Shown here piece by piece: positions 12 through 20,884 of a stretch of DNA of 25,798 nucleotides. The position numbers were made by a program, and so were the translations under genes. The DNA comes from a virus: positions 1 to 25,798 of IMG/VR virus record IMGVR_UViG_3300032323_003558; one strand, given 5' to 3'. The number at the start of each line of letters is the position of its first letter. The stretch's first letter is position 1. The notes beneath the pieces are model-generated. The model searched no databases. It was not told the origin of the DNA and worked only from the letters and a program-made list of their open reading frames with translations.

Positions 12-1169
12 TCATTGCCCGCCATCAACAAGTTCATTCAATATCTCTTTCCAGTCTGTGTTTCTAACCTTATCAACCTTTGCCATATTTTCTAGGAACT
101 TACTCCATATAGCGTCGTCGCCAGGTAGGCGAGCATGCTCTATAATATCGTTGATGTGCTTGTGATTGATTGCACCTAGATAGTCTATTGCCTTAGATTT
201 AAGATCCTTTGGTAGATTTCTAATATCAAAATACTTTGGGTCGTGCAACCTATTTTGCAAACTAACCTCGACCAACGCTGGCATGGTATCTGCCCAATCT
301 ATAATATCTTGGATATAAAACACGTTTAGTATGCTAACGGTCGGTTGGATAACCACCCTAAACATATCGCATTCCGTCATGAATCTCCTAACATTGGTAT
401 CTATGCTAGACCAAGTTGATCCGTACCTTATGTATTCTGCCTGGGAACCAACGGCATCGATGCTAGGCATCATGATGCCTTTAAAATTCTTCAGCATTTC
501 GATCCATTTATAATTGAAAGCCTGGAAGTTGCTGTTGAATTCTAGTGTTACGGTTTCGTTATACCCCTTGGCTACTAACTTTTCCAAGATGGCATATGTT
601 GATTTGATAAGGCTTGGTTCTCCGCCGGTGAAGTAAATCCGCGACCCCGGAGAGATCTTGTCAAAGAGGTCATCGATATCCTTGAAAGAGTACGGAGATG
701 CGAGGTCAAACTTAGAAACCTTATTACGTATCTCAACGTAATGATCTTGATGATCGGGGTTGGATCGAACCTCATCTAGGATTGAGCTGGACGATTTAGG
801 TCCGCACGTTATGCACAGCATGTTGCACCTATTGCTGAGCCGTAGGTCAACTACTGAATATCCGGGCTTTTCGTAATCGTCTATGGAATTTCTAGATAAC
901 CACGAGCTATTTTCTCGAGTTCGTTTTGACATAAACCCGTTGTTGTCATTCCACTCGCATCTACCGCAGCTTTTGGGATATTCGCCTTTTAAAAACTTAT
1001 CTTTAACCGCCTTGAGATAGTCACTTGATTCGTATTTAGATATGTCTCCCCTATAATTTTCGGTATTATCCATCCAACAACACGGCCTTACACCACCAGA
1101 CGGAGTTGTGGCTATTCCGGTCCAAGGCATTATGCAAAATGATTTTGATATGTTATCTGTTATACCCAT
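12..1169 (-). CDS. Radical SAM protein with N-terminal twitch-like cysteine set
   Basis: 385 aa from the ATG at 1169. The N-terminus carries a twitch/SPASM-like cysteine set: FCIMPW (C12), PCC (C30, C31) and CGRC (C68, C71). The radical SAM core follows, with CX3CX2C at C115/C119/C122 for the [4Fe-4S] cluster that cleaves S-adenosylmethionine, and a GGEP motif near 182-185 that normally contacts SAM. This order, auxiliary-cluster domain before the core, matches the family usually named twitch domain-containing radical SAM protein. An in-frame TTG at 1187 gives six more residues. I prefer the ATG because it overlaps the upstream oxygenase stop by 10 nt, exactly as the paralogous junction at 1932-1941 does. 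It is the last gene of the cassette in the window. Substrate unknown. Confidence 0.88.
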   Translation of the reverse strand: MGITDNISKSFCIMPWTGIATTPSGGVRPCCWMDNTENYRGDISKYESSDYLKAVKDKFLKGEYPKSCGRCEWNDNNGFMSKRTRENSSWLSRNSIDDYEKPGYSVVDLRLSNRCNMLCITCGPKSSSSILDEVRSNPDHQDHYVEIRNKVSKFDLASPYSFKDIDDLFDKISPGSRIYFTGGEPSLIKSTYAILEKLVAKGYNETVTLEFNSNFQAFNYKWIEMLKNFKGIMMPSIDAVGSQAEYIRYGSTWSSIDTNVRRFMTECDMFRVVIQPTVSILNVFYIQDIIDWADTMPALVEVSLQNRLHDPKYFDIRNLPKDLKSKAIDYLGAINHKHINDIIEHARLPGDDAIWSKFLENMAKVDKVRNTDWKEILNELVDGGQ

Positions 1170-1726
1170 GATGAAAATCCAGTGCAAACCTCATCGTAGT
1201 CAAGATTCTTATATGTGACAGAAAAGAATATGGCAGGCCTTGCAGCAACATGTATGGCCCCGTGCGGCAGGGCAACGTTATGTATGACTGGATGCTCTAG
1301 ATTATATTTGTCAAATAGCGTATCGTTCCAATCGTAAAACCAATTTGGAGGGTCGTTAACGGTATCCACGTCCCTGGGTGTAAAATTACAATTTGTTGAT
1401 GAAAGTTTTGATAAATCTTTACCCACAAGCGAAAATATAAAAGAGTTTTTGAGATCTACGGCCATTGGGATGTGTAGTGCGGTCTTTCGTCCTCTGTCGA
1501 TGTGAGGCAACGACGTGCCAGTGACATAATATACCTCAATCGCGTGAGCAGGGAGTGGCAAAAACTGGTTCAAGTAGTCAACATCATCATGTTTCAACAC
1601 CGAGCCTGAATGCTCTGGCGTCCACTTATGCTGGGGGTGTGTGTTTTTGAATTTCTTATCATATATGCGAGCAAAGGTCTCCGTGACTGTTGCAGGAAAG
1701 TTCTTCAAAATCTTAATGTTGTCCAT
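1160..1726 (-). CDS. 2OG-Fe(II) oxygenase-like protein, copy A
   Basis: 188 aa. PHIDRGR supplies an H-x-D pair (H75, D77). Late in the protein ALPHG (H155) is followed eight residues later by R163 and a hydrophobic FFSV strand. This H-x-D...H...R order is the facial triad plus 2-oxoglutarate-binding arginine of double-stranded beta-helix oxygenases. The length suits a single catalytic domain. Such enzymes hydroxylate or otherwise oxidise proteins, nucleic acids or small molecules; the substrate here is unknown. An AGGAT ribosome-binding sequence lies about 10 nt before the ATG. The 3' end overlaps the downstream radical SAM gene by 10 nt, so the two are probably translationally coupled. A paralogue is encoded at 1932-2510. 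Assignment rests on motifs, without a search. Confidence 0.72.
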   Translation of the reverse strand: MDNIKILKNFPATVTETFARIYDKKFKNTHPQHKWTPEHSGSVLKHDDVDYLNQFLPLPAHAIEVYYVTGTSLPHIDRGRKTALHIPMAVDLKNSFIFSLVGKDLSKLSSTNCNFTPRDVDTVNDPPNWFYDWNDTLFDKYNLEHPVIHNVALPHGAIHVAARPAIFFSVTYKNLDYDEVCTGFSSWV

Positions 1727-1773
1727 TGAAAATAATCCTATTGATGTTTTTACAACTCACGGAATCATAAATG

Positions 1774-1941
1774 CTATTGCATGTTCTCATTCCACGCATG
1801 CTGAGCTGCATCGTGCGCCGAATCTAATTCCCAGCTTTCTGACTTGATTTTTAAACATTCACACATTAAGATCTCATCGGTGTGTTGAGTAGAATTAAAA
1901 GTCCGTGAGTGCAATCTCGATATGCTGTTGGTCATACCCAT
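1774..1941 (-). CDS. 55-codon ORF starting like the adjacent radical SAM gene; probable remnant
   Basis: Reading from the ATG at 1941 gives 55 codons to a TAG at 1774. The ATG overlaps the stop of oxygenase copy B by 10 nt, the same geometry as between copy A and its radical SAM gene. The first eight residues, MGMTNSIS, resemble the start of that radical SAM protein, MGITDNIS, and similarity then stops. The rest has one CEC and an acidic, helical-looking C-terminus with no motif I recognise. The simplest reading is the 5' stub of a deleted or replaced radical SAM gene in a duplicated oxygenase-radical SAM module. A real small protein is possible. It occupies most of the 205-bp gap between the oxygenase genes. 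Confidence 0.35.
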   Translation of the reverse strand: MGMTNSISRLHSRTFNSTQHTDEILMCECLKIKSESWELDSAHDAAQHAWNENMQ

Positions 1942-2510
1942 GCAGCAAACTTTGAACAGATTTCTTCGTATGGCATTACGTATGATACAGAAAAAAAAGC
2001 TCCTATCTTTTTAGAAAAGTTTGCACCGCCGTGGGGTAAGGCTACGTTGTGTAACACTGGATGTTCAAAGTAGTATCTTTCAAAAGAAAGATCATCCCAG
2101 TGATAAAACCAGCTGTCGGGATCGTTAACCACAACAATGTTAGCCGATATCCGTCGCGGGCTAAACTCTTCTTTCTTTGCTACAAGATTCGGAATAGACG
2201 TGTTTTTTACCGAATATATAAACATGTTTTTAGCATCTACATTTATTGGAATTTGAAAAGCACTTTTTCGTCCTCTATCTATATGAGGATCGATCCTTCC
2301 ATTAGCATAGTATATTTCGATACTTAGAATATCCGGTATTGGTAACAGTTGTTTCAACGCATGAAAGTCTTCGTGCTCTAATGCAGATGCTGAGAAACTT
2401 TTTGACCAACGATCCTGGGGATCCTTGCCGTCAAATTTAGAGTTATATACCGCACGAAACGCTTGGAGAACTCTGTTAGGAGTGTTTTTAAGAACCGTGA
2501 TGTTATCCAT
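1932..2510 (-). CDS. 2OG-Fe(II) oxygenase-like protein, copy B
   Basis: 192 aa, clearly paralogous to the protein at 1160-1726. Both start MDNI, both have PHIDRGRK, HNVALPHG and FFSV, and both end in a WV dipeptide. Putative iron ligands are H76, D78 and H160. At the position where copy A has arginine (R163), this copy has lysine (K168) in the stretch SKKIGAFF, so 2-oxoglutarate binding may differ. The ATG at 2510 forms a TAATG junction with the upstream radical SAM gene, sharing one base, which indicates translational coupling. The DNA here is noticeably more A+T-rich by eye (roughly 37-42% G+C in lines I counted) than the sheath gene. Substrate unknown. Confidence 0.72.
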   Translation of the reverse strand: MDNITVLKNTPNRVLQAFRAVYNSKFDGKDPQDRWSKSFSASALEHEDFHALKQLLPIPDILSIEIYYANGRIDPHIDRGRKSAFQIPINVDAKNMFIYSVKNTSIPNLVAKKEEFSPRRISANIVVVNDPDSWFYHWDDLSFERYYFEHPVLHNVALPHGGANFSKKIGAFFSVSYVMPYEEICSKFAAWV

Positions 2511-3625
2511 TAAAATACTGTCCTTTCTCGATTGCTGTCGCTTGCGCTACTGAAATCATAGATGCTTCCGCATGTGCGACCACAGCACATCAGCTTACCT
2601 ACGGGTAACGACTCCATATCTAACGACCAGCTTTCGACCAATTTAGCGCCAATCCAATCATGGTTGATTATGTCCTCGATGGTGTGGTGTCTTAGTGAGT
2701 TAAAATCGAAGCCGTAGTGATCTAACAATTTCTTGATCTGAACCTTTTGGGTGTTTTTGCCATGATGGTACATACCGCTGGCCGTCCACGTGCATGGCCA
2801 CAACCTTGCCTCGAAGTCCACGAACACGGCTTTTTGTTTACGAAATTTGCAATCAATGCTGGTCCGGTTTATGTAGTTGCTCCAGCTACCAAAATCCTTC
2901 ACGATTTGGTCGAACTGTAGGCTGCTTCCGGCTAGATACTTGTTCGTGGGAGCTTGCAACGCATACTCTGATCTTTTCGTGCTTACCTTGTCTGCGAGCT
3001 CGGTCTTTACCCATCCCTGGTAGTTCTTTTCATTTATGAATCTGTTGGTCTTCTTCACGTTGAACTCAATGAAGCCGAGCTTTTGAGCAAGTTCCTTTGC
3101 CTCTTCTACCTGGTGCTCGTTATGCGCGAATACGAGGAAGTCCCAGCGAGCCCGTCCGTTGGCCGCGATGAATGCCCGCGCATTATCCATGATCTTGTCG
3201 AAATTGCTGTTTACCCTGTAGATGCCGTTGGTATCGCCCAGCCCGTCTATGCTGAATACGACTTTCCCCCTATCACCAATGATTCCCGCCAACTCAGTCC
3301 ACCAATCGCGGCTTCTTGCGCTACCATTTGTCATTATGTTGATAAATGCCGAACTTCCCTGTTCGCGCAACCAAGACAGGCATTCAAGGATGTTGTTGCT
3401 GGCTATGACATCTCCGTAGTTACCGCACTGGGTTATTAGTTTCACGTTTTTTATGAGCTTATCCGGAAAAATACGCCTGTAGTCGTCTATGGTTAATTCC
3501 CCGATAGGCATTTCTGGATTTAAGGAACCGTTATACACACGCGCGCATTGTGGACAAAGCAGGTTGCATCGGCTTGTGTGGTCTATCTGCACCGATTCTA
3601 TTTGATCGATCTCAAGATATTTCAT
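2510..3625 (-). CDS. Radical SAM protein with C-terminal SPASM-like cysteines
   Basis: 371 aa. RCNLLCPQC near the N-terminus gives the radical SAM CX3CX2C cluster (C20, C24, C27). The usual GGEP position is occupied by CGNYGD, as in the two related proteins at 9681-10682 and 10679-11758. A shared HNEHQ motif lies in mid-protein. Cysteines in the C-terminal third (CKFRK, WPCTW, MCCGRTCG) form a SPASM-like auxiliary cluster region. SPASM enzymes often modify peptides but also act on sugars and small molecules. It overlaps its upstream neighbour by 4 nt (ATGA) and its downstream neighbour by 1 nt. Substrate unknown. Confidence 0.87.
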   Translation of the reverse strand: MKYLEIDQIESVQIDHTSRCNLLCPQCARVYNGSLNPEMPIGELTIDDYRRIFPDKLIKNVKLITQCGNYGDVIASNNILECLSWLREQGSSAFINIMTNGSARSRDWWTELAGIIGDRGKVVFSIDGLGDTNGIYRVNSNFDKIMDNARAFIAANGRARWDFLVFAHNEHQVEEAKELAQKLGFIEFNVKKTNRFINEKNYQGWVKTELADKVSTKRSEYALQAPTNKYLAGSSLQFDQIVKDFGSWSNYINRTSIDCKFRKQKAVFVDFEARLWPCTWTASGMYHHGKNTQKVQIKKLLDHYGFDFNSLRHHTIEDIINHDWIGAKLVESWSLDMESLPVGKLMCCGRTCGSIYDFSSASDSNRERTVF

Positions 3626-5001
3626 TTCGGTTCTGTATCTTTCAGGAGATCGTACAGCTCTGGTATGTATGTTTCAATGCTGTGGCCACGGATCTTATCC
3701 AGTTTGCGCGTTACCTGCCAAAATCTTGGAAGTTCTTCGCTGAAATCCTTGGCATACATGTAATCAACATATTGATCCAAGAGGCCGGTGACGGACTTAA
3801 TGCTGGCTTCCTTGCGATCCGCCTTGAAATCGCTTTGCTCAATGAGAGCCACGAGATGTGGTTTAAATCTCTCGTACTTGGCCTTGACCGTCTCCTTGGC
3901 AAAGGGAGGCAGCATCCGTATGTTATAAAACTTCGGACCATGTAGGGGATGGGGCGTTATTACCGGCATCCAGTTGTCATCATTTACTCGCCGTATTTTG
4001 TTCAGCAATATCCATTCCATGAATTCGGGAAAGTGCAGAACGTTGAAAACATTTATCGTCGCTGCTATCCAGATACGAAAGTTACCTTCAGCCTGGCTGA
4101 GCTTGATCAGATTCTTGTGTATTTGATCGAAGTTGGACGGATACCTCATGTAATGGTTGATATCTCCAACCCCGTCGATGCTAGCTCCGATGTTAACCTG
4201 CTTAAAGTGTTTCCATATGCTTAGTGCTCTAGCTGGAACGTTCGTTAAGTTTGTGTTGTATTCTATTAGCATCTTAGGCGCCTGTCCTTGATCAACACAT
4301 TTTTGCAGGAACTCGTAGTGACGATCGATGAGAAGAGGCTCTCCTCCAACTATGTATAACTTGGTGATCTGCGGTATCCGCTCATACATCTGGGCCCAGT
4401 AGCTTTCGCTTTCGTGCCAACCGTAAACGTCGTTTTTTGGAGAATACCTGCCGTTTTCGTTCTCCACTAGCTCAACCACACCGTGGCTATCCTTGAAGGA
4501 CGGACCCCATAGTTTAACCTGATCGTTGTACCATTGGCTGCTATCCGTTGGTCCGCACATGCGACATTTTAAATTGCAAAGATTACCAAATCTTACGTCA
4601 TAGAACGTGCTAGCTATTTCTTTTGTATCGATGGAACCGTCCTCGGTCGTGTGCTCGAGCAGATGGTCCCAGCTGAAGGTACCGCGTTGGATCCATACAA
4701 GATTTTCGTAATGCTGCCTGGAGTTCATCCCTGCGGCACTTTCGGTTTGGCATCTCACGCATTCAGGATGCCACTTTCCTTCCATCATCGTCCTGCGTAT
4801 CTCGCGCGCTAGTGGACTGTTTCTAGCACTTTCTAGGTTTGAATGATTGGCATTGTAAACCTTGCCATCCTCGTCTTTTAGGATTCCAGCAGAGGGTCCG
4901 TGCTGTGCCTGGCAGCATATCCGGATGTCACCGTTAGATCTCAGGCTTTGGCTGATCCAAGGGATGGGACAAAGGGTTGAGTTTTTCCAATCTATGGTCA
5001 T
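3622..5001 (-). CDS. Radical SAM protein with N-terminal twitch-like cysteine set
   Basis: 459 aa. The N-terminal cysteines are C11 (LCPIPW), C29/C30 (RICC) and C81/C84 (CVRC). The radical SAM cluster is C142/C146/C149 in LCNLKCRMC, and GGEP is at 219-222. An ID(G)VG strand typical of these cores follows in mid-protein. It resembles the proteins at 6951-8282 and 8279-9673 most closely, sharing the insert between the auxiliary and core cysteines with an acidic DGSID-type turn. ATGA overlaps join it to both neighbouring genes. It probably installs or rearranges a bond by radical chemistry; the substrate cannot be inferred from sequence. Confidence 0.88.
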   Translation of the reverse strand: MTIDWKNSTLCPIPWISQSLRSNGDIRICCQAQHGPSAGILKDEDGKVYNANHSNLESARNSPLAREIRRTMMEGKWHPECVRCQTESAAGMNSRQHYENLVWIQRGTFSWDHLLEHTTEDGSIDTKEIASTFYDVRFGNLCNLKCRMCGPTDSSQWYNDQVKLWGPSFKDSHGVVELVENENGRYSPKNDVYGWHESESYWAQMYERIPQITKLYIVGGEPLLIDRHYEFLQKCVDQGQAPKMLIEYNTNLTNVPARALSIWKHFKQVNIGASIDGVGDINHYMRYPSNFDQIHKNLIKLSQAEGNFRIWIAATINVFNVLHFPEFMEWILLNKIRRVNDDNWMPVITPHPLHGPKFYNIRMLPPFAKETVKAKYERFKPHLVALIEQSDFKADRKEASIKSVTGLLDQYVDYMYAKDFSEELPRFWQVTRKLDKIRGHSIETYIPELYDLLKDTEPK

Positions 5002-6314
5002 TTTAGGAAATCCATGTGTGGGAATGCCGTCCAGTAATCGATCTGTCTGAGCTCTGAAAGCTTATTATAGTATTCCCTAGCTTTCTTCCGTAGACCCTCG
5101 TCGTCAATATCAGCGTTGTTTAGGGCCGTAATAAGACCTCGCACGGCCTTGATCTCTCGACCTTTGTTGGGACTAATGGTGCAAAACCAACTGGTCGATA
5201 TGAATTCTTCTAGCCTTGATATCTCAACCTTCCTAAGCTCAAGGGGTACTAACTCGTGTCTTAACCATTCCTTGCCCCTTACGGTGGTAAAACCGAGGTG
5301 AAACCGCGTGTTATTTGTTTTGGCACAGTAATCATCCAGATACCTAAGGAGATCCACGATGCCTATGCAATTTGCCGTTTGTAAGCAGGTCTGGGTTACC
5401 GTGGACCAGCCGTCATGCAAAGACGTGCTCATTTCTATGCTGCGGATCACGTGCGGCCATTTGGTGTGGTATCGTATCAGCTCGTCCTGGCGCATGTATG
5501 CGTCAATGCTAAAACGTAACAAACCGCCTTTAAACTTATTTAGGAGGGAAATTATGTCCTCATCTATGAGGGTAGCATTGGTACTAATGTCCAGCGTGAT
5601 GTTAGCAGCGAATTCGGTTGCTGCTATTTCTTTCATGAAATCCACGCTGTGCTTGTCAGCAAAAACCTCGCCACCCCTAAACTCCATGTAAAGGATGTTC
5701 CTAAGATTTTCCATTATCTGGGATTTGAAAAATTGGCTCTCGCTTAGATATTCGTCACCGCCCTGCTTTGCGAGCTCCAAGCTGCCCTGCATTTGTCCGG
5801 TCATTCGTGAGCCCCATTTTGAATATTCTTTGTATATCATGCTGCTTAGATTTGGACTGCACATGATGCAGTTAAGATTGCACTTGGTGCTTAGTCTTAC
5901 TTCCCACCATTGGGGCATGATGTCCACGTAGCCGTTGTTTTTGTGGTATTCCTCCAGCAACGGTAAGACCCGCTCAAGGAACCTACGATTCTTACCCTGT
6001 CTCTTGCTACCTAGGCCGCTCTCTTCCATGCGATAACAAAATGAGCAATTAGATATCCGATCACCTCTCAACATGCGCATCCTGAAATCCATCATGAATC
6101 TGCTATTCCATAGATCGGCGATGGAATCCTCAGCGAGATTAAAAACCTCGGTATCGTTGTTGTAGGTCTCCGCGGTGAGCTCACCGATGGTAAGATGTTT
6201 TGGAATTCCCTTGTCCAGCCCACCTATGCTACAGCATACCCGAGCGTCTCCCTTACCTCTCGTGTTTAGTTGCACGAACGGCACTGTGCAGAAGTTCGCG
6301 TGATTGATGTTCAT
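4998..6314 (-). CDS. Radical SAM protein with N-terminal twitch-like cysteine set
   Basis: 438 aa. The N-terminal set is C9 (FCTVPF), C27/C28 (RVCC) and C90/C93 (CSFC). The core cluster is C145/C149/C152 in KCNLNCIMC. GGE at 214-216 is followed by V rather than P. It is the most divergent of the five proteins with this architecture. Its ATG at 6314 lies just inside the divergent upstream region shared with the plus-strand SDR gene, and a CATAAATA late-type promoter sits 36 nt upstream on the same strand. It is therefore the first gene of a sub-operon running to position 12. The start has only a weak ribosome-binding sequence, but MNINHANFC places the first cysteine at the usual distance. Confidence 0.86.
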   Translation of the reverse strand: MNINHANFCTVPFVQLNTRGKGDARVCCSIGGLDKGIPKHLTIGELTAETYNNDTEVFNLAEDSIADLWNSRFMMDFRMRMLRGDRISNCSFCYRMEESGLGSKRQGKNRRFLERVLPLLEEYHKNNGYVDIMPQWWEVRLSTKCNLNCIMCSPNLSSMIYKEYSKWGSRMTGQMQGSLELAKQGGDEYLSESQFFKSQIMENLRNILYMEFRGGEVFADKHSVDFMKEIAATEFAANITLDISTNATLIDEDIISLLNKFKGGLLRFSIDAYMRQDELIRYHTKWPHVIRSIEMSTSLHDGWSTVTQTCLQTANCIGIVDLLRYLDDYCAKTNNTRFHLGFTTVRGKEWLRHELVPLELRKVEISRLEEFISTSWFCTISPNKGREIKAVRGLITALNNADIDDEGLRKKAREYYNKLSELRQIDYWTAFPHMDFLK

Positions 6315-6350
6315 GTCGAATCTTTATGTTTTGAATGGGATCAGCAAAAA

Positions 6351-6358
6351 TATTTATG
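6351..6358 (-). promoter_or_regulatory. T4-type late promoter octamer, CATAAATA
   Basis: The minus strand reads CATAAATA, matching the NATAAATA core of T4-type late promoters. It lies 36 nt upstream of the ATG at 6314, about the spacing seen at the sheath gene. It would restart minus-strand transcription after the inverted SDR gene. This is motif evidence only; the octamer is short and the DNA here is A+T-rich. Confidence 0.45.
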
Positions 6359-6364
6359 TAGACG

Positions 6365-6370
6365 AAAGGA
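6365..6370 (+). promoter_or_regulatory. Ribosome-binding site deciding the SDR start
   Basis: AAAGGA lies eight bases before the ATG at 6379. This is the ideal Shine-Dalgarno distance for that ATG, while the ATG at 6370 and the upstream TTG/ATG codons at 6304-6315 lack a properly spaced site. It supports a start directly before the nucleotide-binding strand. Confidence 0.6.
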
Positions 6371-6378
6371 TGGTACCA

Positions 6379-6960
6379 ATGCAATCGAACAAAAGGATTT
6401 TGATCTCCGGTAACAAGGGACATGGTGTAGCAAGCGGGATCGACCAGATCATGTCGTCAGATTATCATCTCGAGTTTTGTAGCCGAAAGAATGGCTTTGA
6501 TCTCACCAGTGAATCAGGGCGCCAGAGATTTGTCGAGCTAAGCCTGGGATATGACGTCTTCATCAATAACGCGGCCCTTTGGAGATTCAATCAAACCCTG
6601 CTGGCAGAGGCCGTTTGGAAATCTTGGACCGAAAATAACAAGACAGGTCACATCATAAATCTTGGTAGCACGGCCGACAGGCAAATTTATGGCGGTAACT
6701 GGACATACCCTGCTGAAAAGAAAGCTCTCAGACATCAAAGCATCAGCCAAGCCATGTCATCCTTGGGCGGCAGCGGGATCAAGGTCACGTACCTTGCATA
6801 TGGATACGTGAGCACACCAAACATAGAAAAGAAGCACCCGACCAAGAAAAAGCACGAACCGGTGGAGATAGCTAGATTGATCAAATGGATCATCGAATAC
6901 CCCGTCGATAACAGCAATCTCATCGAGATAGTTTTAGATCCGATCCAATCTCAGAGATAA
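6379..6960 (+). CDS. Short-chain dehydrogenase/reductase (SDR)
   Basis: 193 aa from the ATG at 6379; the frame is open back to 6304. It is a Rossmann-fold NAD(P)-dependent oxidoreductase. SGNKGHG at residues 10-16 is the glycine-rich dinucleotide-binding turn, D41 in FDLT fits the adenine-site aspartate, and INNAA at 62-66 is the NNAG motif. S97, Y110 and K114 (YPAEK) form the catalytic Ser-Tyr-X3-Lys set, so activity is expected. At 193 aa it is short for a classical SDR (about 250). It is the only plus-strand gene in the left 14.9 kb. It overlaps the neighbouring gene convergently by 10 nt at its 3' end. Context suggests redox tailoring of whatever the radical SAM enzymes act on; substrate unknown. 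Confidence 0.83.
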   Translation: MQSNKRILISGNKGHGVASGIDQIMSSDYHLEFCSRKNGFDLTSESGRQRFVELSLGYDVFINNAALWRFNQTLLAEAVWKSWTENNKTGHIINLGSTADRQIYGGNWTYPAEKKALRHQSISQAMSSLGGSGIKVTYLAYGYVSTPNIEKKHPTKKKHEPVEIARLIKWIIEYPVDNSNLIEIVLDPIQSQR

Positions 6961-8282
6961 TCGTGCTTACGGAGCAAGCTAGCAAGCTCAGGTAGCATGG
7001 TATTGATGCTTTCATTTCGCATCTCATCAAGTGATCTGGTAAAACGTAGAAAGCTTTTGAATTCGTTTGAAAGATCCTGGGCAAGCATGTATCTCAGGTA
7101 TCCCCTGACGAGGCTGGCTAATTGTGTCCTGATGTGATCGTTTAAAACGGCAACGGTTTGCCCTTCTAACCAGTTTTCTATGCGACTTCTTATGTGTTCC
7201 TTTATTTCCGGTGGAAGTACCTGCACGTTAAGATGCAACGGGTGTCTCAGCAAATGCATGTTGATCACGTTTGAGATGTCACGAACGTCGTCCATGTGAT
7301 GCACCGAAAACACCCAGTCGAGCAGCTCTGGAAGATAAAGGATGTTATACGCCATCACCGTTGATGCAACCCAGTGGTTGCAGTTTTTCATGGTGGAGAG
7401 TTTCTTGTAGTTCTTCTCGATGGCGCTCCATCGAGATGGGTAACGGATGTAGTCGTTTACCTCGCCCACACCGTCTATGCTGGCACCAATTCTTACTTCT
7501 AGGAAATTGGTCCAAAGTGATAGTATGCGATCTGGTATGTTGGTGATGTTGCTGTTATAGTCGATTATGATCCCTTGGCTTGCTCCTGAGGCGACAAGCA
7601 TTTCCAGGAACTCTTGGTGCTTCTTGATAAAGACCGGTTCTCCGCCGCTGATGTGTATTTTTTTGATGGTCTTGGTCGCTGATATGCAGGACAACAGATC
7701 CGATTGCTCATACCATCTGAAATCTCCGTCGTTGGTGGCCAGTATCTTGCCTTCATGGTTGGAAAGATGAACGGTGTCTGGATTGACATTAAATTTCTTG
7801 TTTCCCAATCCGTACCAATCCTCATACCATGCTGTGCTTTCCCCCGGCCAGCATGACCGGCACTTGATATTGCAGAAATTGCCAAAGCGTATGTCCGCTT
7901 CTCGGAGACCAAACAGGGACGTATCGATGGTGCCATCGTCGGAGGTATGGATCGCACATTCGTCGTAGGTGACTTGGTTTACCTCGGTCTTTGACCACTG
8001 TCTACGGCTCGGAATACCGAGCTCGTCCTCCTGATTGCATCTCGAACATGCCGTGTGCATTTCGCCGCGCAACATGGCAGAACGAACATCCTTGACTAAC
8101 TCGCAGTTGCGTGCCTCTTCTACGGTGTTGTGTTTTGCATTGAGTATGCTACCATCTTTGTCCCTAAAGATGCCCATGGTGACCTTGTCGGCATGGGACT
8201 GGCTGCAAAGCCTATAGTACCCGTTCAACCTGGTGGAAACGCTGTTCCACGGTATAGGACACCAGCTCTTGTTCTCGGTCAT
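6951..8282 (-). CDS. Radical SAM protein with N-terminal twitch-like cysteine set
   Basis: 443 aa. N-terminal cysteines are C8 (WCPIPW), a single C26 (LCSQ, where paralogues have CC) and C79/C82 (CSRC). The radical SAM cluster is C137/C141/C144 in FCNIKCRSC, and GGEP is at 213-216. It is closest to the protein at 3622-5001, sharing FGN(L/F)CN(L/I)KCR and the spacing to GGEP. It starts with an ATGA overlap on its upstream neighbour. Its 3' end overlaps the convergent SDR gene by 10 nt. The loss of one of the paired cysteines may alter ligation of the auxiliary cluster, though the remaining four could suffice. Substrate unknown. Confidence 0.87.
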   Translation of the reverse strand: MTENKSWCPIPWNSVSTRLNGYYRLCSQSHADKVTMGIFRDKDGSILNAKHNTVEEARNCELVKDVRSAMLRGEMHTACSRCNQEDELGIPSRRQWSKTEVNQVTYDECAIHTSDDGTIDTSLFGLREADIRFGNFCNIKCRSCWPGESTAWYEDWYGLGNKKFNVNPDTVHLSNHEGKILATNDGDFRWYEQSDLLSCISATKTIKKIHISGGEPVFIKKHQEFLEMLVASGASQGIIIDYNSNITNIPDRILSLWTNFLEVRIGASIDGVGEVNDYIRYPSRWSAIEKNYKKLSTMKNCNHWVASTVMAYNILYLPELLDWVFSVHHMDDVRDISNVINMHLLRHPLHLNVQVLPPEIKEHIRSRIENWLEGQTVAVLNDHIRTQLASLVRGYLRYMLAQDLSNEFKSFLRFTRSLDEMRNESINTMLPELASLLRKHDYL

Positions 8283-9673
8283 TCAACCAGTTCTTTTAAC
8301 AAGGGGAAGGTTTTGGCGAAAGAAAGACCTCTCATCCCGTCAAGCAGGCGCAGGTATTCCCTTGTCTCCGGTAGCCTTGCGGACCAGTCCTCTGAATTCA
8401 TGAAATTGATTATGCCCTTGAACCTCGGTAACCCGTAGCTAGCTGATAGCCACTGTTCCTTTGTCAGACCAGCAGCCTTGACCCCGGTGAACTTGTCCCA
8501 ATTTTCCTCCATCCACGGAAAGAACTCTTCTTGGTATTTCCTCGTGATCTCTTCCTTGAGGTGGCGGGGAAGGACCTTCACGTTTAGCTGTGGAGGCCAA
8601 TATGCAAAATGCATGTTGATGCCTCCTGCTCCGAGGGGCCAAGCATTGATCTTCTTGAATCCCTGTGACACCTTCCACTTAACGAACTCTGGCAGATATG
8701 GGATGTTCAGTGCCATGCAGGTGGTAGCCGTTGTGACCGTTACGTTGTCCGATGTCTGGTCAAGCTTCCAAAATACCTCCTCTTGATGGTGCCATTTTGA
8801 TGGGTATCTTATGTAATCGTTCTGTGCTCCGTATGCATCTATGGAGTAATGGAAACGAACATTCCTAAAATTGCTCCATATATCAAAAAGGTCATCACGC
8901 CATTCGACCCCGTTCGAGTTGTATCTAAGCTCTATCTTGTCGGCAAAGCCACGCTTTATGCACTCCTCAAGCAGATCGTAGTGCTCATCTATGATGAGGC
9001 TTTCGCCACCCGCGAAATACAGCTGATAGAGGTTAGGGATCTGGTCAAAAAGCTCATTCCAGAATCGAGGATTGTTCTTGTGCCAGTTGTAGCTAGCGCC
9101 ATGATTACGCCCTTTGTTGTCCCATTGGCTGGTGTTTTTCAACCTCTCGTTCTGTATCTGGGGGAACATCTGGTTCCATTCTTTTATCCAACCAGAGCTA
9201 TCGTGCGGGCTACACATGACACACGCCAGCTGGCACTTTGAACCCATTCTTAGGTCAATGTACCTTATCTTTACCGGAAGGCTGCCGTCAGCCGTCGTTT
9301 CGCTGACCAATTGGTCGATGTCATACCTAGCGTCCCAGTAGTTGTTTTCCCAATTGCGCTTGCTTAAATGGCCAGCTTCCTCCTCCTTGTAGCATTTTAG
9401 GCAGCTAGCGGGTTTTTCGCCCCTTAGCATGAGCTTGCGAACGTTTCTCATGTAGTCTGAGTTCCACGCATCCTCCAGGGACGTATGGTTGAAATTGGCA
9501 GGCACGCCGTCATTGGTTTTCACGACGCCGACCTCACCGCCTCCTATCTTCTTGTTCGAATCAGGATCCTGCACGGAGCTGGCGTTCGACGTGCAACATG
9601 TTCGCATCTTGCCGTCGGGCCTGCTGCTTAGATGTATCCACGGCAGGGCGCAAAAGGTTTTTGATTGATTCAT
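8279..9673 (-). CDS. Radical SAM protein with N-terminal twitch-like cysteine set
   Basis: 464 aa. Auxiliary cysteines are C8 (FCALPW), C26/C27 (RTCC) and C91/C94 (CLKC). The core cluster is C147/C151/C154 in KCQLACVMC. The SAM-contact motif reads GGES instead of GGEP. The ATG at 9673 follows the previous stop by 7 nt, and CGTAAATA lies four bases upstream across that stop. The 3' end overlaps the next gene by 4 nt (ATGA). It has the family's usual order, auxiliary domain before the TIM-barrel-type core. Substrate unknown. Confidence 0.88.
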   Translation of the reverse strand: MNQSKTFCALPWIHLSSRPDGKMRTCCTSNASSVQDPDSNKKIGGGEVGVVKTNDGVPANFNHTSLEDAWNSDYMRNVRKLMLRGEKPASCLKCYKEEEAGHLSKRNWENNYWDARYDIDQLVSETTADGSLPVKIRYIDLRMGSKCQLACVMCSPHDSSGWIKEWNQMFPQIQNERLKNTSQWDNKGRNHGASYNWHKNNPRFWNELFDQIPNLYQLYFAGGESLIIDEHYDLLEECIKRGFADKIELRYNSNGVEWRDDLFDIWSNFRNVRFHYSIDAYGAQNDYIRYPSKWHHQEEVFWKLDQTSDNVTVTTATTCMALNIPYLPEFVKWKVSQGFKKINAWPLGAGGINMHFAYWPPQLNVKVLPRHLKEEITRKYQEEFFPWMEENWDKFTGVKAAGLTKEQWLSASYGLPRFKGIINFMNSEDWSARLPETREYLRLLDGMRGLSFAKTFPLLKELVE

Positions 9674-9677
9674 GTGA

Positions 9678-9685
9678 TATTTACG
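9678..9685 (-). promoter_or_regulatory. Late-promoter-like octamer at a start codon, CGTAAATA
   Basis: The minus strand reads CGTAAATA and spans the stop codon of the upstream radical SAM gene, four bases before the ATG at 9673. The gp15-like gene has GGTAAATA four bases before its ATG. A late promoter here would start transcription almost at the start codon, so this may be chance or a different signal. Confidence 0.2.
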
Positions 9686-10682
9686 GCCATTTTCTGCTAA
9701 GATTGTCTCGGAAAACCCCGCATGTGCGTATGCACCTTGACAACGGACGTTCAGTCCATCTTGAGGCTACCTCTGTGAAAAATCCCGTGGATACTATTTC
9801 ACTGAGGGTGGAATTCTTGATGTTCGGCGGAGATTCAATGTCATCAAGGGACGTGTATGATGCATAAGGTTCGACCCGATCGGTATTGTAATGGTAACCA
9901 AGATTACAGCATGGATACACCCTGCCGTCCGCTGCAACATAGATGCTACGTTCTTTCTTGGCATAGCACGATATGTCACCCGACCATTGTGTGTTTTTCG
10001 AGATTCGATTTGGATTTTTGGCTTCGAACTCGGACTCGTCTATGGACGGGGCTTCTAGCTGATACAGCACCTTGCCATGGGAGTCCAGAACGTCAAACTT
10101 ATCACCCTTGAATCGATTGGTGATTATCTGTTCAAAGAATGAAAATCCGTGGCACTTTGACAGCTCTCGAGCCTCGTTGATCTGATGCTGATTATGCCTA
10201 AAGGTGATGAACTTCCATCCTGCTATACCGCCGGCATTGATGTAGGATTTTGCATTTTCCATCAATTTCTTCCACGACACGTTTCGCCTGTATAGGTGGT
10301 TCGTGTCCTCCAGCCCGTCTATGCCGAACACCACCGTTAGCTTTTTACCAGCAATGGTTGCCAGTCTAGCCCACCAGTCCGGAGTCCTAGCACCGCCGTT
10401 CGTCATCATGATAATCGGCGTGCCGAATCTGTCTAACCACCGTTCGACGATATCATGCAGGTTCGGATGGATGCTAGGATCGCCGTAATTGCCGCACAGC
10501 GTTAGCTTGCCTATTTGCATGTCAAATCTGTCAAACCAGCTCGCATCAAAGTAAACGTTTTCCAGATTTGGATTGATGGCATCCCCTGATCGATTACGAA
10601 GGCACATCGGGCATGCAGCATTGCATCTGGTCGTGGCTTCTACGTGTACGTACGAAAGCTGGTCAGTGCTGTAAAAGGTCAT
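9681..10682 (-). CDS. Radical SAM protein with C-terminal SPASM-like cysteines
   Basis: 333 aa. The radical SAM cluster is C20/C24/C27 in RCNAACPMC. CGNYGDP stands where GGEP normally does, and HNQHQ occurs in mid-protein. C-terminal cysteines (SCYAK, YPCCN and CIRTCG) form a SPASM-like auxiliary region. FGIDGLEDTNHLYR is the conserved core strand shared with the two sister proteins. It is the shortest of the three. It overlaps the upstream sister gene by 4 nt (ATGA), so the two are an adjacent paralogous pair and may act together. The following gene starts 7 nt after the stop. Substrate unknown. Confidence 0.88.
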   Translation of the reverse strand: MTFYSTDQLSYVHVEATTRCNAACPMCLRNRSGDAINPNLENVYFDASWFDRFDMQIGKLTLCGNYGDPSIHPNLHDIVERWLDRFGTPIIMMTNGGARTPDWWARLATIAGKKLTVVFGIDGLEDTNHLYRRNVSWKKLMENAKSYINAGGIAGWKFITFRHNQHQINEARELSKCHGFSFFEQIITNRFKGDKFDVLDSHGKVLYQLEAPSIDESEFEAKNPNRISKNTQWSGDISCYAKKERSIYVAADGRVYPCCNLGYHYNTDRVEPYASYTSLDDIESPPNIKNSTLSEIVSTGFFTEVASRWTERPLSRCIRTCGVFRDNLSRKWP

Positions 10683-11758
10683 TCAAACTGTTCCCTGAAC
10701 GCGTCAAAATCCTCTCCGCATTTTTGAGAACACACCTTTAGCTTGCCATCCGAGCAGGACTTCATGCTCCATGTTCGCTCTATAGAATCAAAGATACCGG
10801 TATCGAAGACCTGCTTGAGACCATTCCTGGCATCTAACGCATGCTTACCGCCAACGGCATCGATCATCTGCCAGATCTGCTCGGTACGGGGATTCTTTTG
10901 CCACCACTTGTACATCCGACCTGCCGTCCAGCAGCACGGCAACGCAAGACCTTCGGCGGTTATGAACAAGCTAGCCTCGTCCTTGACCTTGCATCGTATT
11001 TTGGCCGAGTCGTAATAATTCTCCATGCTTCCGTGCTTGGCTATCAACGATGATTCTTTTGACAGGGCCTTGTTCTGGTACTGTTCAGATGGTTTTCTCA
11101 GCACGGATTTCTCATCACCACGGCGATCCACCACCGTGTGCTCGTTCTTACCGGCATCCCGAGCGGTGCTGAAGAACCTAGCGGTCTTTTTGGCAACGAA
11201 CTTTTCGAAGCCCAATTGGTTAGCCAGGTATCGCGCGTCGTCGACCTGATGCTGATTATGTTCGAAAACTATGAAATCCCATCTAGCCCGACCACCGGCC
11301 GCTATGAACGAGGTGAATGATCGTTCGACACTTTCCCATTGCACGTTTTGTCGGTATATGTGGTTGGTGTCCTTAAGACCATCGACGGAAAAAATCACCG
11401 TACCGTTTCGTCCCATGATCTTAGCTAGCTCCTGCCACCATTCCGGTGACCTAGCCCCGCCGTTGGTATTCATGCTGAGCCACATTCGGTCGTTGTGCTG
11501 CCTAAAATACCTAAAGACCTCCAGGGTATCGTCGGCTACTATCGGATCTCCCAGATTGCCACACATGTACATCGTGTTAAGCTGCCCGATGAAGCCGGGA
11601 TCGAAGATCCTTTGGCAATCTGCAAGCGTCAGTTCTGAGAGGTCTATGTGTGGATTTAGTTGGCCGCCGTTCTGGTTTCGATCACACATAGGACACGCTG
11701 CCTGGCAGCGTTGCGTGATCTCTAGATGTACGGTGCGTATGTCGTCTAGATCGTACAT
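10679..11758 (-). CDS. Radical SAM protein with C-terminal SPASM-like cysteines
   Basis: 359 aa. The core cluster is C18/C22/C25 in RCQAACPMC. It has CGNLGDP in the GGEP position and HNQHQ in mid-protein. C-terminal cysteines lie in IRCKV, LPCCW and CSQKCG. It is closest to the protein at 2510-3625, sharing GGRARWDF/NGRARWDF, KKT(A/N)RF and the CCW/CTW context, and is adjacent to a third sister. Start: ATG at 11758, 6 nt after the stop of the 76-aa gene, with an AGG-containing leader. It is the first radical SAM gene in transcription order and directly follows the small protein gene, so that small protein is a candidate partner or substrate. Confidence 0.88.
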   Translation of the reverse strand: MYDLDDIRTVHLEITQRCQAACPMCDRNQNGGQLNPHIDLSELTLADCQRIFDPGFIGQLNTMYMCGNLGDPIVADDTLEVFRYFRQHNDRMWLSMNTNGGARSPEWWQELAKIMGRNGTVIFSVDGLKDTNHIYRQNVQWESVERSFTSFIAAGGRARWDFIVFEHNQHQVDDARYLANQLGFEKFVAKKTARFFSTARDAGKNEHTVVDRRGDEKSVLRKPSEQYQNKALSKESSLIAKHGSMENYYDSAKIRCKVKDEASLFITAEGLALPCCWTAGRMYKWWQKNPRTEQIWQMIDAVGGKHALDARNGLKQVFDTGIFDSIERTWSMKSCSDGKLKVCSQKCGEDFDAFREQFE

Positions 11759-11764
11759 GGTAAC

Positions 11765-11995
11765 CTAAACATCCTTGTGGATGAGCGTTACATCCTGGCC
11801 CGGCCCTGCCAAGCTTGGTAGATCGCCGTGTTCGGCCATGTAAGACCTGAGAAGGTTTCGATACCACTCAACAGAATCATGGTTGGTCATCTTGTTGAAT
11901 TTTGATAGCTTGTTGTTGTCAGCACCAAGTGCTACCAACATGCGAGATACCTCGAGCTGTAGCTGGCGGGTGGTTAATTGTTCAAGTTCGGTCAT
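11765..11995 (-). CDS. Small helical protein of unknown function (76 aa)
   Basis: I do not recognise this protein. It is coupled by a 4-nt ATGA overlap to the upstream methyltransferase-like gene and lies 6 nt before the first radical SAM gene, so it is very likely translated. Residues 1-55 look alpha-helical and charged (MTELEQLTTRQLQLEVSR). A glycine/proline-containing tail follows (LPSLAGPGQD) and ends in a short hydrophobic-charged stretch. It has no cysteine, signal peptide or membrane segment. Position alone suggests an accessory subunit, substrate-carrier or substrate of the adjacent SPASM-type enzymes. This is inference. Confidence 0.7.
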   Translation of the reverse strand: MTELEQLTTRQLQLEVSRMLVALGADNNKLSKFNKMTNHDSVEWYRNLLRSYMAEHGDLPSLAGPGQDVTLIHKDV

Positions 11996-12756
11996 TTGTG
12001 TCCGATCACCATAAATCTTTTGTATGTATCCAAATCCAAAGAACCTGAAAACAGTACCTTTCGCAGGTTCACGCTGTCCATGAATTCCTCGACGCTTTCG
12101 ACGTGCGCAACGTGGGTGTCGTCGTGCTTGGTATTGGTATTTTGTAGCACGATCGGTACGTTATTCGGCAGCTTGTATATCCACGAACGGATGTCATCAA
12201 AATGATCACAGGAGGTATTGATGATGCAATCGGGCTTTTCATGCACTGGTTTTGACAGCGTGTTGTTAGACTTGCGACCTACCAACTCATAAGTGCTATC
12301 GGATGAAAATACCATTGTCAAGGCGTTCTCAGTGATCGCTTTGAATTTCCAACTTTTTGCCGTGTTATCTATGTTTAGCTTGTCTGCAGGCGGCTGGCAA
12401 GCAGGATCAAGATCAAAGGATCTTATCTTGTCCACGGTCATGCGCTGATCCCTAAACATCAACCAAGGTAAGACTCCTAGCCAACCGCCCATCGTATAAA
12501 CACAAGAAAAGCTAGTTTGAATTTTGGTAAGCTCATCTATCAACCAAAGCTTAGATCTTAGCTGACCTTTTGAAAACGCGTCTGCCCACGGGGCGTCTGG
12601 AAAAGATTGTATTGCCCGTGCCATGATGGTTAGGTCAGCCTCGAGGGGTGACTGCATGCATTGTATGATCTTTGGCCAGTTTAGATCCTGGGAGCATATC
12701 ACCGCCTGGGCGATGGTATTGATTACCGAAGCTTTGTCGAGGCTTTGTTCATTCAT
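11992..12756 (-). CDS. Class I methyltransferase-like protein
   Basis: 254 aa from the ATG at 12756, which gives an 8-nt ATGAATGA overlap with the upstream gene; the frame is open to 12792. Residues about 85-94 (CVYTMGGWLG) fit motif I of a class I SAM-dependent methyltransferase, FDLDP at 114-118 fits the acidic end of strand 2, and INTSCDH at 179-185 fits the motif IV region after strand 4. I associate this Rossmann-like pattern with environmental T4-like phages, where such genes sit near glycosyltransferase-like genes, but this is from memory. Acceptor substrate unknown. The neighbouring glycosyltransferase-like pair suggests a sugar or glycosylated product. A non-catalytic fold relative is possible. 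Confidence 0.55.
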   Translation of the reverse strand: MNEQSLDKASVINTIAQAVICSQDLNWPKIIQCMQSPLEADLTIMARAIQSFPDAPWADAFSKGQLRSKLWLIDELTKIQTSFSCVYTMGGWLGVLPWLMFRDQRMTVDKIRSFDLDPACQPPADKLNIDNTAKSWKFKAITENALTMVFSSDSTYELVGRKSNNTLSKPVHEKPDCIINTSCDHFDDIRSWIYKLPNNVPIVLQNTNTKHDDTHVAHVESVEEFMDSVNLRKVLFSGSLDLDTYKRFMVIGHK

Positions 12757-13450
12757 GGTTATCAAATTCCTGCCGTAACCATGAAAAATCATTGATCATC
12801 GCAAGTGCCTTCTTGTCATCCTTATGCTTGGTCCCATAGTCACGTCCACACAAGGCTCCGCTCATGTTCTCTTCCCAAAAATCCATCTTGGTAATTTTGG
12901 ATGCATCACACCACACATCGAGCCTGTGGGCTGTCTCGTCCTGCTTGGTGTTCGGAATGATGCTCGATGCTAGCTTGACGCACTCCCTGAATGCGGTCCT
13001 CCATGCGTGGAATGCCGATCCGTGGTAACGATGTTCGCTGGTCATTCTATGTACTATACGATAGCTCAGCTTAGCACCGCTCGTCATGTCAACGGCCGAT
13101 CTGTTAAGATTGTTGATGAACGTGCGTGTTGGAAAGAGCTTGATCGCGCCGTGGCCATACACGAGACCGTTGAAAGGGTTTACGGCCCTCATCACATAAA
13201 CCGAATCGTCTTTCGCATCTCCTTCGACCATTGCTAGATCTTCACGAGCATTATCCGTTAACCAGTTATCGCCATCGATGCACCAGAAAAATGCAGTTGA
13301 CGACATGTTTGCACATGCTAGGTGCGCGTCGTGTATCCCGCTGATGTTCGAAACGCACCGTACCTGCGTGCCGACGACCGCTGCGGCACGTTCGTGATTT
13401 TCAGCGAAATGGGGTTCGTCCCAGCGTGTCATGAAGATGTCATTCATCAT
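12749..13450 (-). CDS. Glycosyltransferase-like protein with DGD motif, copy 2
   Basis: 233 aa. GIHDAH (38-43) is followed by FFWCIDGDNW with DGD at 59-61, placed where GT-A enzymes have the DxD that binds metal and sugar nucleotide. Further on, YGHGAIKLFP resembles YGNGGPKLW in the neighbouring protein at 13447-14388. The two share layout (strand, GIH(D/N)A, DGD, YGxG, FR(E)SVK or FRECVK) and are paralogues. No membrane segment or signal peptide. It starts with a 4-nt ATGA overlap on its paralogue. Acceptor unknown; the assignment is by motif only. Confidence 0.57.
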   Translation of the reverse strand: MMNDIFMTRWDEPHFAENHERAAAVVGTQVRCVSNISGIHDAHLACANMSSTAFFWCIDGDNWLTDNAREDLAMVEGDAKDDSVYVMRAVNPFNGLVYGHGAIKLFPTRTFINNLNRSAVDMTSGAKLSYRIVHRMTSEHRYHGSAFHAWRTAFRECVKLASSIIPNTKQDETAHRLDVWCDASKITKMDFWEENMSGALCGRDYGTKHKDDKKALAMINDFSWLRQEFDNHE

Positions 13451-14388
13451 ATGAAACCACTCCTAGCTGGATTTTGATATATGTTCTTGACCCACTTGCT
13501 TGTGTTAACGTCGTGCAATGGTGTCCAAAACCCAACGTCCTCAACGAGCATGTCGCCGAGGGCACGGCAAGCAGCCTCGCAGTCGTCAGCATGCCGTTCT
13601 ATCATGCTTTCTAGATATGCTGATAGGGTTTGATAGTCATTTAGCAGCTGATACCGCAGCGAACTCTTCATCTTGAGATATCTTGGCGAATTGCTTAGGT
13701 TTCGGGAGGTCCAATGGTCCACCAAACCCAGCCTCGAACCGTACACGGCCCATAACCCATATTCAACATCAGCACCCGTGCTACACCAAATATGAACCCG
13801 CGATAGATTGGAGTTCGCTACCGACCGAATGGCAAGGGACCAGTCATCCATGATCTTGCCGTTGTTCGACATGAACTTTACCGATTCACGGTATCCAGCC
13901 CTTGCTGCCTGCAACGGACACTGATTTATCACGGTTGTGGAAAATGTTTGATTTATTTGGTAATACCTAAACGTGGTAAAGAAATCCACCGATATCGTAC
14001 CATTTACGACGTCATGCGTGTTTTTTGTCGCTATCAATCCCTTTTTCCAAAGCTTCGGGCCACCATTGCCATAGCAGAGCTCGTTAACCTTGTTGATCGA
14101 TCCAAAGGAGTAAACGCACGGGATCGATTGGACAGGGAGAGTGAACGAGTCAAATCTAAGATTATCCCAGATCCACGTGTCGCCGTCCACGATCAGGAAC
14201 CACTCTGTTTCCGCTAGCTCATCGGCAGATCTATATGCGTTGTGTATGCCTTGCACACCGTCAACCCGCTTGACATTGCCCGGCCAGACCTTTCGTGCTT
14301 GGTCGTAAAATGCGTCCTTTCCGAGCTCGTCGTACGACACGAAAACCAAGTCGATGTCCTTTAGGTCCAGGACCATTGTTTCATGCAT
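13447..14388 (-). CDS. Glycosyltransferase-like protein with DGD motif, copy 1
   Basis: 313 aa. An N-terminal strand (DLVFVSYDE, 14-21) is followed by GVQGIHNA (44-51) and FLIVDGDTW with DGD at 68-70, a DxD-type motif at the usual GT-A position. YGNGGPKLW follows. The arrangement matches the neighbour at 12749-13450, with a C-terminal extension of about 80 residues containing helical, acidic stretches. Soluble, cytoplasmic by appearance. The ATG at 14388 overlaps the previous stop by 8 nt (ATGCATGA). Likely transfers or senses a sugar nucleotide; donor and acceptor unknown. It could alternatively be an inactive relative. Confidence 0.57.
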   Translation of the reverse strand: MHETMVLDLKDIDLVFVSYDELGKDAFYDQARKVWPGNVKRVDGVQGIHNAYRSADELAETEWFLIVDGDTWIWDNLRFDSFTLPVQSIPCVYSFGSINKVNELCYGNGGPKLWKKGLIATKNTHDVVNGTISVDFFTTFRYYQINQTFSTTVINQCPLQAARAGYRESVKFMSNNGKIMDDWSLAIRSVANSNLSRVHIWCSTGADVEYGLWAVYGSRLGLVDHWTSRNLSNSPRYLKMKSSLRYQLLNDYQTLSAYLESMIERHADDCEAACRALGDMLVEDVGFWTPLHDVNTSKWVKNIYQNPARSGFI

Positions 14389-14969: not shown

Positions 14970-14977
14970 GATTTATT
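14970..14977 (-). promoter_or_regulatory. Weak late-promoter-like octamer, AATAAATC
   Basis: The minus strand reads AATAAATC across the sheath stop codon, one mismatch from NATAAATA. It would drive the cassette, but the terminator hairpin lies between it and the first gene, so it is a poor candidate. A TATAAT-like hexamer also occurs a few bases downstream. Confidence 0.15.
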
Positions 14978-19098: not shown

Positions 19099-19176
19099 GC
19101 ATGCCACTTAAAACCAGCTTGATTTCAACTACCAGGTTCGTTGATGTACCACGCGCCTACATGGCATAATGCCAGC

Positions 19177-19773
19177 ATGCAAAAATTGGTTGGTATAGTT
19201 GGATTGATCGGAAGCGGTAAGGGCACGGCGGGAGACTTTCTGGTGGAAAAGCACGGGTATGTGCGCACCAGTTTTGCACATTCCCTAAAGGACGCCGTTT
19301 CTTCGATATTCGGATGGCCCCGGGATCTCTTGGAAGGAGATACCAAGGAAAGCCGCGTGTGGCGAGAGATCCCGGACGGTTTTTGGAGCTCCAAGATGGG
19401 GAAGCCAGTTACTCCTAGATGGGTCTTGCAGTACTTTGGCACGGACGTGATGAGAGATCATTTTGCCAAGGACGTATGGATTTGGAGCATAGAAAAACGC
19501 CTAGCGTCTGCACCGGGTCCGGTGGTGATAACCGACGTGCGATTCCCGAACGAGATCGATCTGATCAAAAGCCTCGGAGGCAAGCTGATCTGGGTTAGGC
19601 GCGGTCCCGAACCAGAGTGGCTGGCAACGGCATTGCATGACAAATCACTAATGCAAGAAACGGACGTGCATGCAAGCGAATGGTCGTGGATAGGCGAGCA
19701 CGACTACGATGTCATCTGGAACGACTCTGATATCGGCATGTTTTACAAGAAAATAGAAAGCAGCGTTCTTTGA
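19177..19773 (+). CDS. Deoxynucleoside monophosphate kinase (T4 gp1-like)
   Basis: 198 aa from the ATG at 19177. GLIGSGKGT at residues 9-17 is a P-loop, placed directly after the first strand as in phage dNMP kinases. TDVRFPNE and WVRR further on match the family's later core. The enzyme phosphorylates dNMPs with ATP to feed phage DNA synthesis in the cytoplasm. An alternative ATG at 19144 adds 11 residues and has a better-spaced AGG; I prefer 19177 because family members start a few residues before the P-loop. Divergent from the sheath gene; the stop overlaps the TTG start of the next gene. Confidence 0.85.
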   Translation: MQKLVGIVGLIGSGKGTAGDFLVEKHGYVRTSFAHSLKDAVSSIFGWPRDLLEGDTKESRVWREIPDGFWSSKMGKPVTPRWVLQYFGTDVMRDHFAKDVWIWSIEKRLASAPGPVVITDVRFPNEIDLIKSLGGKLIWVRRGPEPEWLATALHDKSLMQETDVHASEWSWIGEHDYDVIWNDSDIGMFYKKIESSVL

Positions 19774-20812: not shown

Positions 20813-20884
20813 GCTATCCTCCGTGTTTGACGTTGACATAGCATGGAAGCTATCAGAGATCAACCGTTTATCTTCAAGGATGCT

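Follow-up and report, generated by a model that had tools for sequence, protein, structure and literature searches.

What use does a phage make of eight genes for radical S-adenosylmethionine (rSAM) enzymes placed in one row beside its tail genes? The question is raised by the IMG/VR virus record IMGVR_UViG_3300032323_003558, which was analysed over its whole length of 25,798 nucleotides (25.8 kb; termed the window). The left part of the window (12-14388) is the gene row, and the right part is a tail block of the jumbo-myophage type; window genes are designated P1 to P17, and contigs or genomes of relatives carry L or G labels. To judge from relatives, the site of the row is a variable slot that follows the tail sheath and ends at the tail tube. 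With a confidence slightly better than even, the row is read as one allele of a cassette for glycan tailoring, modular and shuffled horizontally, in this slot of jumbo myophages, the pathway part being what we infer.

The reading is based on a small set of genes that recurs in fixed order. A scan from the conserved 76-amino-acid (aa) protein P12 alone (11765..11995, minus strand) yielded at least 408 confirmed matches in viral contigs of IMG/VR. The conserved order is P14 (glycosyltransferase, GT), P13 (methyltransferase-like), P12 and P11 (rSAM/SPASM), usually followed by P9. Of the 44 listed P12 loci whose flanks were complete, all had P14 and P13 upstream, 43 had P11 downstream, and 29 had P9 at a distance of no more than 5 kb; because of these counts, P14-P13-P12-P11, usually with P9, was regarded as a fixed unit. 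Gene maps of P9 loci gave P14-P13-P12-P11-P9 and then a varying set of rSAM genes. The survey of gene neighbourhoods in viral contigs suggested in the initial annotation thus confirmed that conserved multi-rSAM arrays recur. One virus contig of 518,643 bases (L294) carries homologues of P14, P13, P11 and P9 in this order.

P12 overlaps P13 by 4 nt and is separated from P11 by a gap of 6 nt. Twelve of its residues were identical in all of the 137 sequences compared. It was found only in viral-type contigs; the search of ten Bdellovibrionota genomes yielded fragments at E=0.0075 at best. PDB matches of P12 to designed helical repeats and antibody light chains were discarded as short chance matches. 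Protein searches in 50,697 phage records gave three weak matches for P9, one for P11, and none for P15, P12 or the P14 fusion; these records thus revealed no close cultured relative of the cassette. Because the phage-type cassette including P12 is present in L111 and L112, filed in metagenome-assembled genomes (MAGs) of Rickettsiales and Gammaproteobacteria, both were treated as phage, and they are probably mis-binned phage contigs; L126 and L129 may likewise be phage contigs filed as bacterial MAG.

All eight CX3CX2C proteins that had been noticed within 11.8 kb, each encoded on the minus strand, are rSAM enzymes according to profile matches in NCBIfam, Pfam and PHROG. These matches are solid and dispose of the concern that most of the proteins lack the fold. 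Five of the eight had been credited with an N-terminal twitch-like cysteine set, and five exceeded the curated cut-off of 170 bits of the NCBIfam family NF033640 (N_Twi_rSAM), scoring 263-414 bits in alignments that covered almost the entire profile: P1 (12..1187, TTG start, near the contig end; 296 bits), P5 (3622..5001; 375 bits; 78% identical in L077), P6 (4998..6314; 263 bits; SPASM and rSAM domains above the Pfam cut-offs), P8 (6951..8282; 336 bits) and P9 (8279..9673; 414 bits). All five share seven invariant cysteines, four in the N-twitch (C8, C26, C91, C94) and three in the SAM cluster (C147, C151, C154). The alignment of these paralogues was too divergent to serve as a query for contig scans. 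P9 is the most conserved of them and close to the core, with orthologues of 66-83% identity in 79 viral loci and one further relative at 41%.

The remaining three, for which SPASM-like C-terminal cysteines had been noted, indeed share the cysteines of the radical SAM (RS) cluster and four invariant C-terminal cysteines (C256, C275, C343, C347). These are P4 (2510..3625; PF04055 at E=1.7e-3, phrog_21308 at 3e-18), P10 (9681..10682; PF04055 above cut-off) and the core protein P11 (10679..11758; PF04055 at E=1e-6, phrog_21308 at 3e-19). Only P10 among them passed the Pfam SPASM cut-off. P4 and P10 reached 33-41 bits against NF033640 and are not members; P11 was outside the NCBIfam scan.

The partner enzymes of the core point to sugar chemistry. 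An AlphaFold2 model of P14 (12749..13450, minus strand) calculated from 44 sequences had a predicted local distance difference test (pLDDT) score of 93, compared to 31 for a single-sequence model. Each of the 50 PDB matches listed for this model by Foldseek was either a GT-A enzyme or a GT-A-like nucleotidyltransferase (E 4e-6 to 2e-4); most were GT-A glycosyltransferases such as WrtF, TarP and SunS, and a DGD/DAD motif is conserved. The predicted structure supports P14 as a putative GT-A-like glycosyltransferase, although a profile search of the PDB with P14 had yielded no meaningful match. P15 (13447..14388, minus strand) is homologous to P14 by alignment and has local matches to P14-bearing fusions; the two DGD-motif proteins noted earlier are GT-A-like on the predicted structure of one of them, P14. 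In relatives, P14-type GT domains are often situated inside proteins of 500-1066 aa (L013:4368-7568, G013:16276-19185, L032, L044); in the longest of these, from L013, a string of repeats of about 100 aa precedes the GT domain.

The other modifying enzymes could be assigned less firmly. The label methyltransferase-like for P13 (11992..12792, minus strand) is suggested by the conserved motifs SFDID.C and IINTSCEH, whereas no Pfam, PHROG or PDB profile matched. Similarly, the two genes described at first as 2-oxoglutarate (2OG)-Fe(II) oxygenase-like, P2 (1160..1726) and its paralogue P3 (1932..2510; 47% identical), both on the minus strand, have the HxDRGR...PHG pattern, which is invariant or nearly so in 11 homologues, but no profile of a double-stranded beta-helix oxygenase family in Pfam, PHROG or PDB was matched. 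The best match among these homologues was Cupin_2 (E=0.039), and P2 may be an Fe(II)/2OG oxygenase or cupin-like protein. The embedded short-chain dehydrogenase/reductase (SDR) P7 (6304..6960) is real, with 28.1 bits against Pfam adh_short (cut-off 26.6) and retained GxxxGxG and YxxxK motifs, although it lies on the plus strand, opposite to the row. The gene looks intact, and homologues are located inside the cassettes of relatives.

Related cassettes extended over about 40-50 kb in the contigs mapped, and long contigs of relatives (up to 330 kb) had 3-21 N-twitch rSAM matches each. Genes for UDP-glucose dehydrogenase, epimerase/GDP-mannose dehydratase, DegT/StrS aminotransferase and carbamoyltransferase are included, as well as B12-rSAM, PP-loop/QueC-like and 2OG/Asp-hydroxylase proteins and an amidinotransferase-like protein (weak arginine deiminase match). 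Tail-fibre or virion proteins adjoin these cassettes.

By sequence, the contig is that of a jumbo phage with a structural block related to Atu_ph07/PA5oct; its virion protein has homologues of 38-41% identity in jumbo phages (41% to Atu_ph07), and its sheath has homologues of 42-53%. The tail sheath (14976..19058, minus strand; 1360 aa; phrog_10581 at 1.5e-257; 42-44% identical to Agrobacterium phage Atu_ph07 and Sinorhizobium phage Phosso) forms the border of the slot, and the adjoining P16 (14381..14776, minus strand) is the last gene before it. Three relatives with sheaths 63-72% identical (L189, L191, L193) have P16 at the same place and a P13-like gene directly after it. L191 has the order sheath, P16, methyltransferase-like gene, tube with no intervening cassette, and L189 has an unrelated cassette of nearly 8 kb (5233-12897) in the same slot before the tail tube. 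This L189 cassette, inspected by eye, appeared to encode hydroxylases, a Rieske oxygenase, PP-loop proteins, a desaturase and an acetyltransferase. The cassette is also found at different sites, since it lies far from the sheath in relatives of 330 and 306 kb. Neighbouring genes conflict in their identity ranks (P4 80% and P9 66% to L077; P4 44% and P9 78% to L024), as expected of shuffling by recombination.

The row itself is not due to chance, because orthologues recur in order elsewhere and are under purifying selection (pN/pS about 0.12-0.25 for P4, P5, P6, P9 and P11 against L077). It may be incomplete, as it reaches the contig end. Its genes had been described as nearly all joined by overlaps of 1-10 nt; most spacings are indeed overlaps of 1-8 nt, but gaps of 6-7 nt also occur, and there are four larger exceptions (overlaps of 44 and 28 nt, gaps of 636 and 205 nt).

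Orthologues of P9, mostly 51-61% identical, were detected in Bdellovibrionota MAGs on contigs of up to 936 kb, often together with homologues of P11, P13 and P14 and without P12. Each examined Bdellovibrionota genome had 10-42 matches to NF033640, partly in dense arrays, and none above the cut-off was found in 14 control genomes. More than 10 N-twitch rSAM genes lie within 30 kb of one Bdellovibrionota chromosome (G031:C1 745-775 kb; L177, L178). The Bdellovibrionota loci also hold genes for GT2 glycosyltransferases, UDPGP, NTP_transferase (nucleotidyltransferase) and hexapeptide transferase. Viral P9 sequences grouped in the tree with marine Bacteriovoracaceae/Halobacteriovoraceae, other Bdellovibrionota being outside (support 99/95). 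Descent of viral P9 from Bdellovibrionota is likely on the basis of this tree, and is not proven, because the root is a midpoint root. This kinship does not identify the host of the phage.

The initial annotation had proposed a multi-step modification pathway acting on a virion protein, a cassette small protein or a surface glycan. A pathway of this class remains the best-supported explanation, and among the three targets the evidence leans to glycan tailoring. In its favour are the GT-A-like proteins that accompany the core without exception, the sugar-nucleotide enzymes in the cassettes of relatives, and the adjacent tail fibres or tail genes. P14 and P15 would transfer a sugar; P11 and P9 would perform a shared radical step on this sugar or its carrier, with P12 as their obligate partner in phages. 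The SDR P7, P13 and the HxD proteins P2 and P3 may contribute reduction or oxidation, methylation and hydroxylation, and the accessory rSAMs P1, P4, P5, P6, P8 and P10 may perform phage-specific, variable oxidations, epimerisations or deoxygenations. BtrN, a twitch rSAM acting on an aminocyclitol (PMC9012708), would by analogy count for a sugar-type substrate of twitch rSAMs. The row is probably expressed late, because it overlaps tail-region genes on the same strand, and for this reason a tail or fibre acceptor on the virion is somewhat likelier than an early host target; the next choice would be remodelling of host envelope glycans for receptor masking. The core, shared by hundreds of related viruses, suggests an elaborate surface sugar that they assemble or alter. 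A combinatorial glycan factory, in which a fixed core of four to five genes of Bdellovibrionota descent and up to about 20 shuffled rSAMs would provide each phage with its own virion or receptor-masking glycan, is proposed tentatively and at well below even confidence.

Several observations weigh against glycan tailoring in this slot. SPASM enzymes studied so far mostly modify peptides; no substrate is known for the N-twitch rSAMs found here or in the literature found, distant bacterial members often lie beside housekeeping genes, and P12 is without known role. The structural matches of P14 are partial, with TM-scores of 0.35-0.48, so that the GT-A fold class is supported and no close family. 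The window, whose row reaches the contig end, has no sugar-nucleotide gene; its slot content exceeds 14 kb, and the border at the tube lies outside the window and is taken from relatives.

Glycan chemistry could also be directed at the host rather than at the virion, remodelling the O-chain or capsule of the envelope and thereby blocking superinfection. This was proposed by Zaragoza-Solas et al. for glycosyltransferases in comparable pelagimyophage islands (PMC7029224), and the same rSAM lineage lies beside GT2 genes in bacterial chromosomes; the overlap with tail-region genes on the same strand suggests late expression, however, and the window is without a flippase or polymerase typical of O-antigen conversion, so that this sub-case is rather doubtful. 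A peptide or protein as substrate must be considered because no small protein other than P12 occurs throughout the cassette family, because P12 lies between P13 and P11 and keeps W, Y, H, S and GP residues unchanged, and because the sole PDB match of P9 in a profile search was the sactipeptide maturase SkfB (E=0.009). P11 and P9 would then cross-link or epimerise P12, or a virion protein escorted by it, and accessory rSAMs would add further marks, in the manner of ribosomally synthesized and post-translationally modified peptides (RiPPs). Yet the 137 P12 sequences are conserved over their full length with no hypervariable core, unlike the leader and variable core of a RiPP precursor, and only 34 of them contain a cysteine. 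P12 is missing from the bacterial loci with P9, P11, P13 and P14, and glycosyltransferases and sugar-nucleotide enzymes would be superfluous. The cassette small protein named earlier as a possible target has its place in the conserved core in its favour, but maturation of this kind is considered unlikely.

Even less probable is a pathway to a diffusible small molecule, aminocyclitol- or nucleoside-like, directed against the host or competitors. The amidinotransferase-like protein, carbamoyltransferase, DegT aminotransferase and B12-rSAMs of relatives do recall aminoglycoside clusters, but the cassettes, where neither an exporter nor a resistance gene was noticed, are located in tail gene blocks and differ greatly in gene content between phages. 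A chimera in which the assembly joined a bacterial locus to phage genes, considered from the outset, might explain why G+C content is lower in the row (41-50%) than in the tail genes (52-58%). It is hardly credible, since many independent contigs have the same core next to structural genes of phages, relatives have P16 at the edge of the slot, and P12 has been met in viral-type contigs only; a chimera was rejected as a general explanation.

Further features of the tail block are less closely connected with the row. The small genes P16 and P17 (14381-14939) beside the sheath share about 100 nt, and the start of P16 may be miscalled. For most listed phage homologues of the sheath, the alignment is split into two parts and covers about half of the 1360 aa, for which reason a large middle insertion is likely. 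A dNMP kinase-like gene, an uncharacterised gene and a PTH2-like gene lie between sheath and neck (19141-20863), the neck protein being identified by a match to phrog_211. An endolysin/chitinase-like lysis gene is located inside the structural block (23831-24454).

Hundreds of aquatic jumbo-phage contigs give large regions to oxygen-sensitive radical enzymes. The universal small core and its phage-specific partner provide a testable five-gene handle on an rSAM family without assigned reaction in the papers found, and the core also bears on why large phages retain chemistry otherwise met in predatory bacteria. The literature searched, largely without subscription papers, contained no description of the P12 core, the sheath-tube slot in this jumbo clade or the Bdellovibrionota link, and nothing on N-twitch rSAM arrays of Bdellovibrionota; the family name was not applied to phages. 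Already in print are rSAM cassettes in host-recognition islands of marine phages.

Among known systems, the hyperplastic region of cyanomyoviruses (Millard 2009) reportedly forms a hot spot of host-like genes within the tail genes, at gp15-gp18; its gene content differs. The N-twitch arrays of Bdellovibrionota resemble the phage cassettes in their P9 orthologues and, in many of them, nearby homologues of P11, P13 and P14, but are chromosomal, have genes on both strands and lack P12. BtrN of butirosin biosynthesis, likened by description, combines an rSAM domain and one auxiliary cluster with a sugar-like substrate (PMC9012708); its twitch is C-terminal and its substrate an aminocyclitol, whereas the twitch in the window is N-terminal. 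The T4-like environmental genome TARA_ERS488813_N000010 has 12 rSAM genes (Nishimura 2017, PMC5332604) and thus, like the window, many such genes in one marine myovirus, remarked on there only as a load of Fe-S proteins; this comparison was also made by description. A further parallel is the host recognition cluster of pelagimyophages, for which rSAM gene cassettes were noted in passing (Zaragoza-Solas 2020, PMC7029224): a variable island among virion genes with glycosyltransferases, rSAM cassettes that come and go, and a UDP-glucose dehydrogenase as in the cassettes of our relatives. The pelagimyophages have genomes of 132-164 kb with the island between VrlC and gp14 (PMC7029224), whereas here the phage is a jumbo phage and the slot lies between sheath and tube. 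Unlike that cluster, the window has eight rSAMs together with the conserved core P14-P13-P12-P11.

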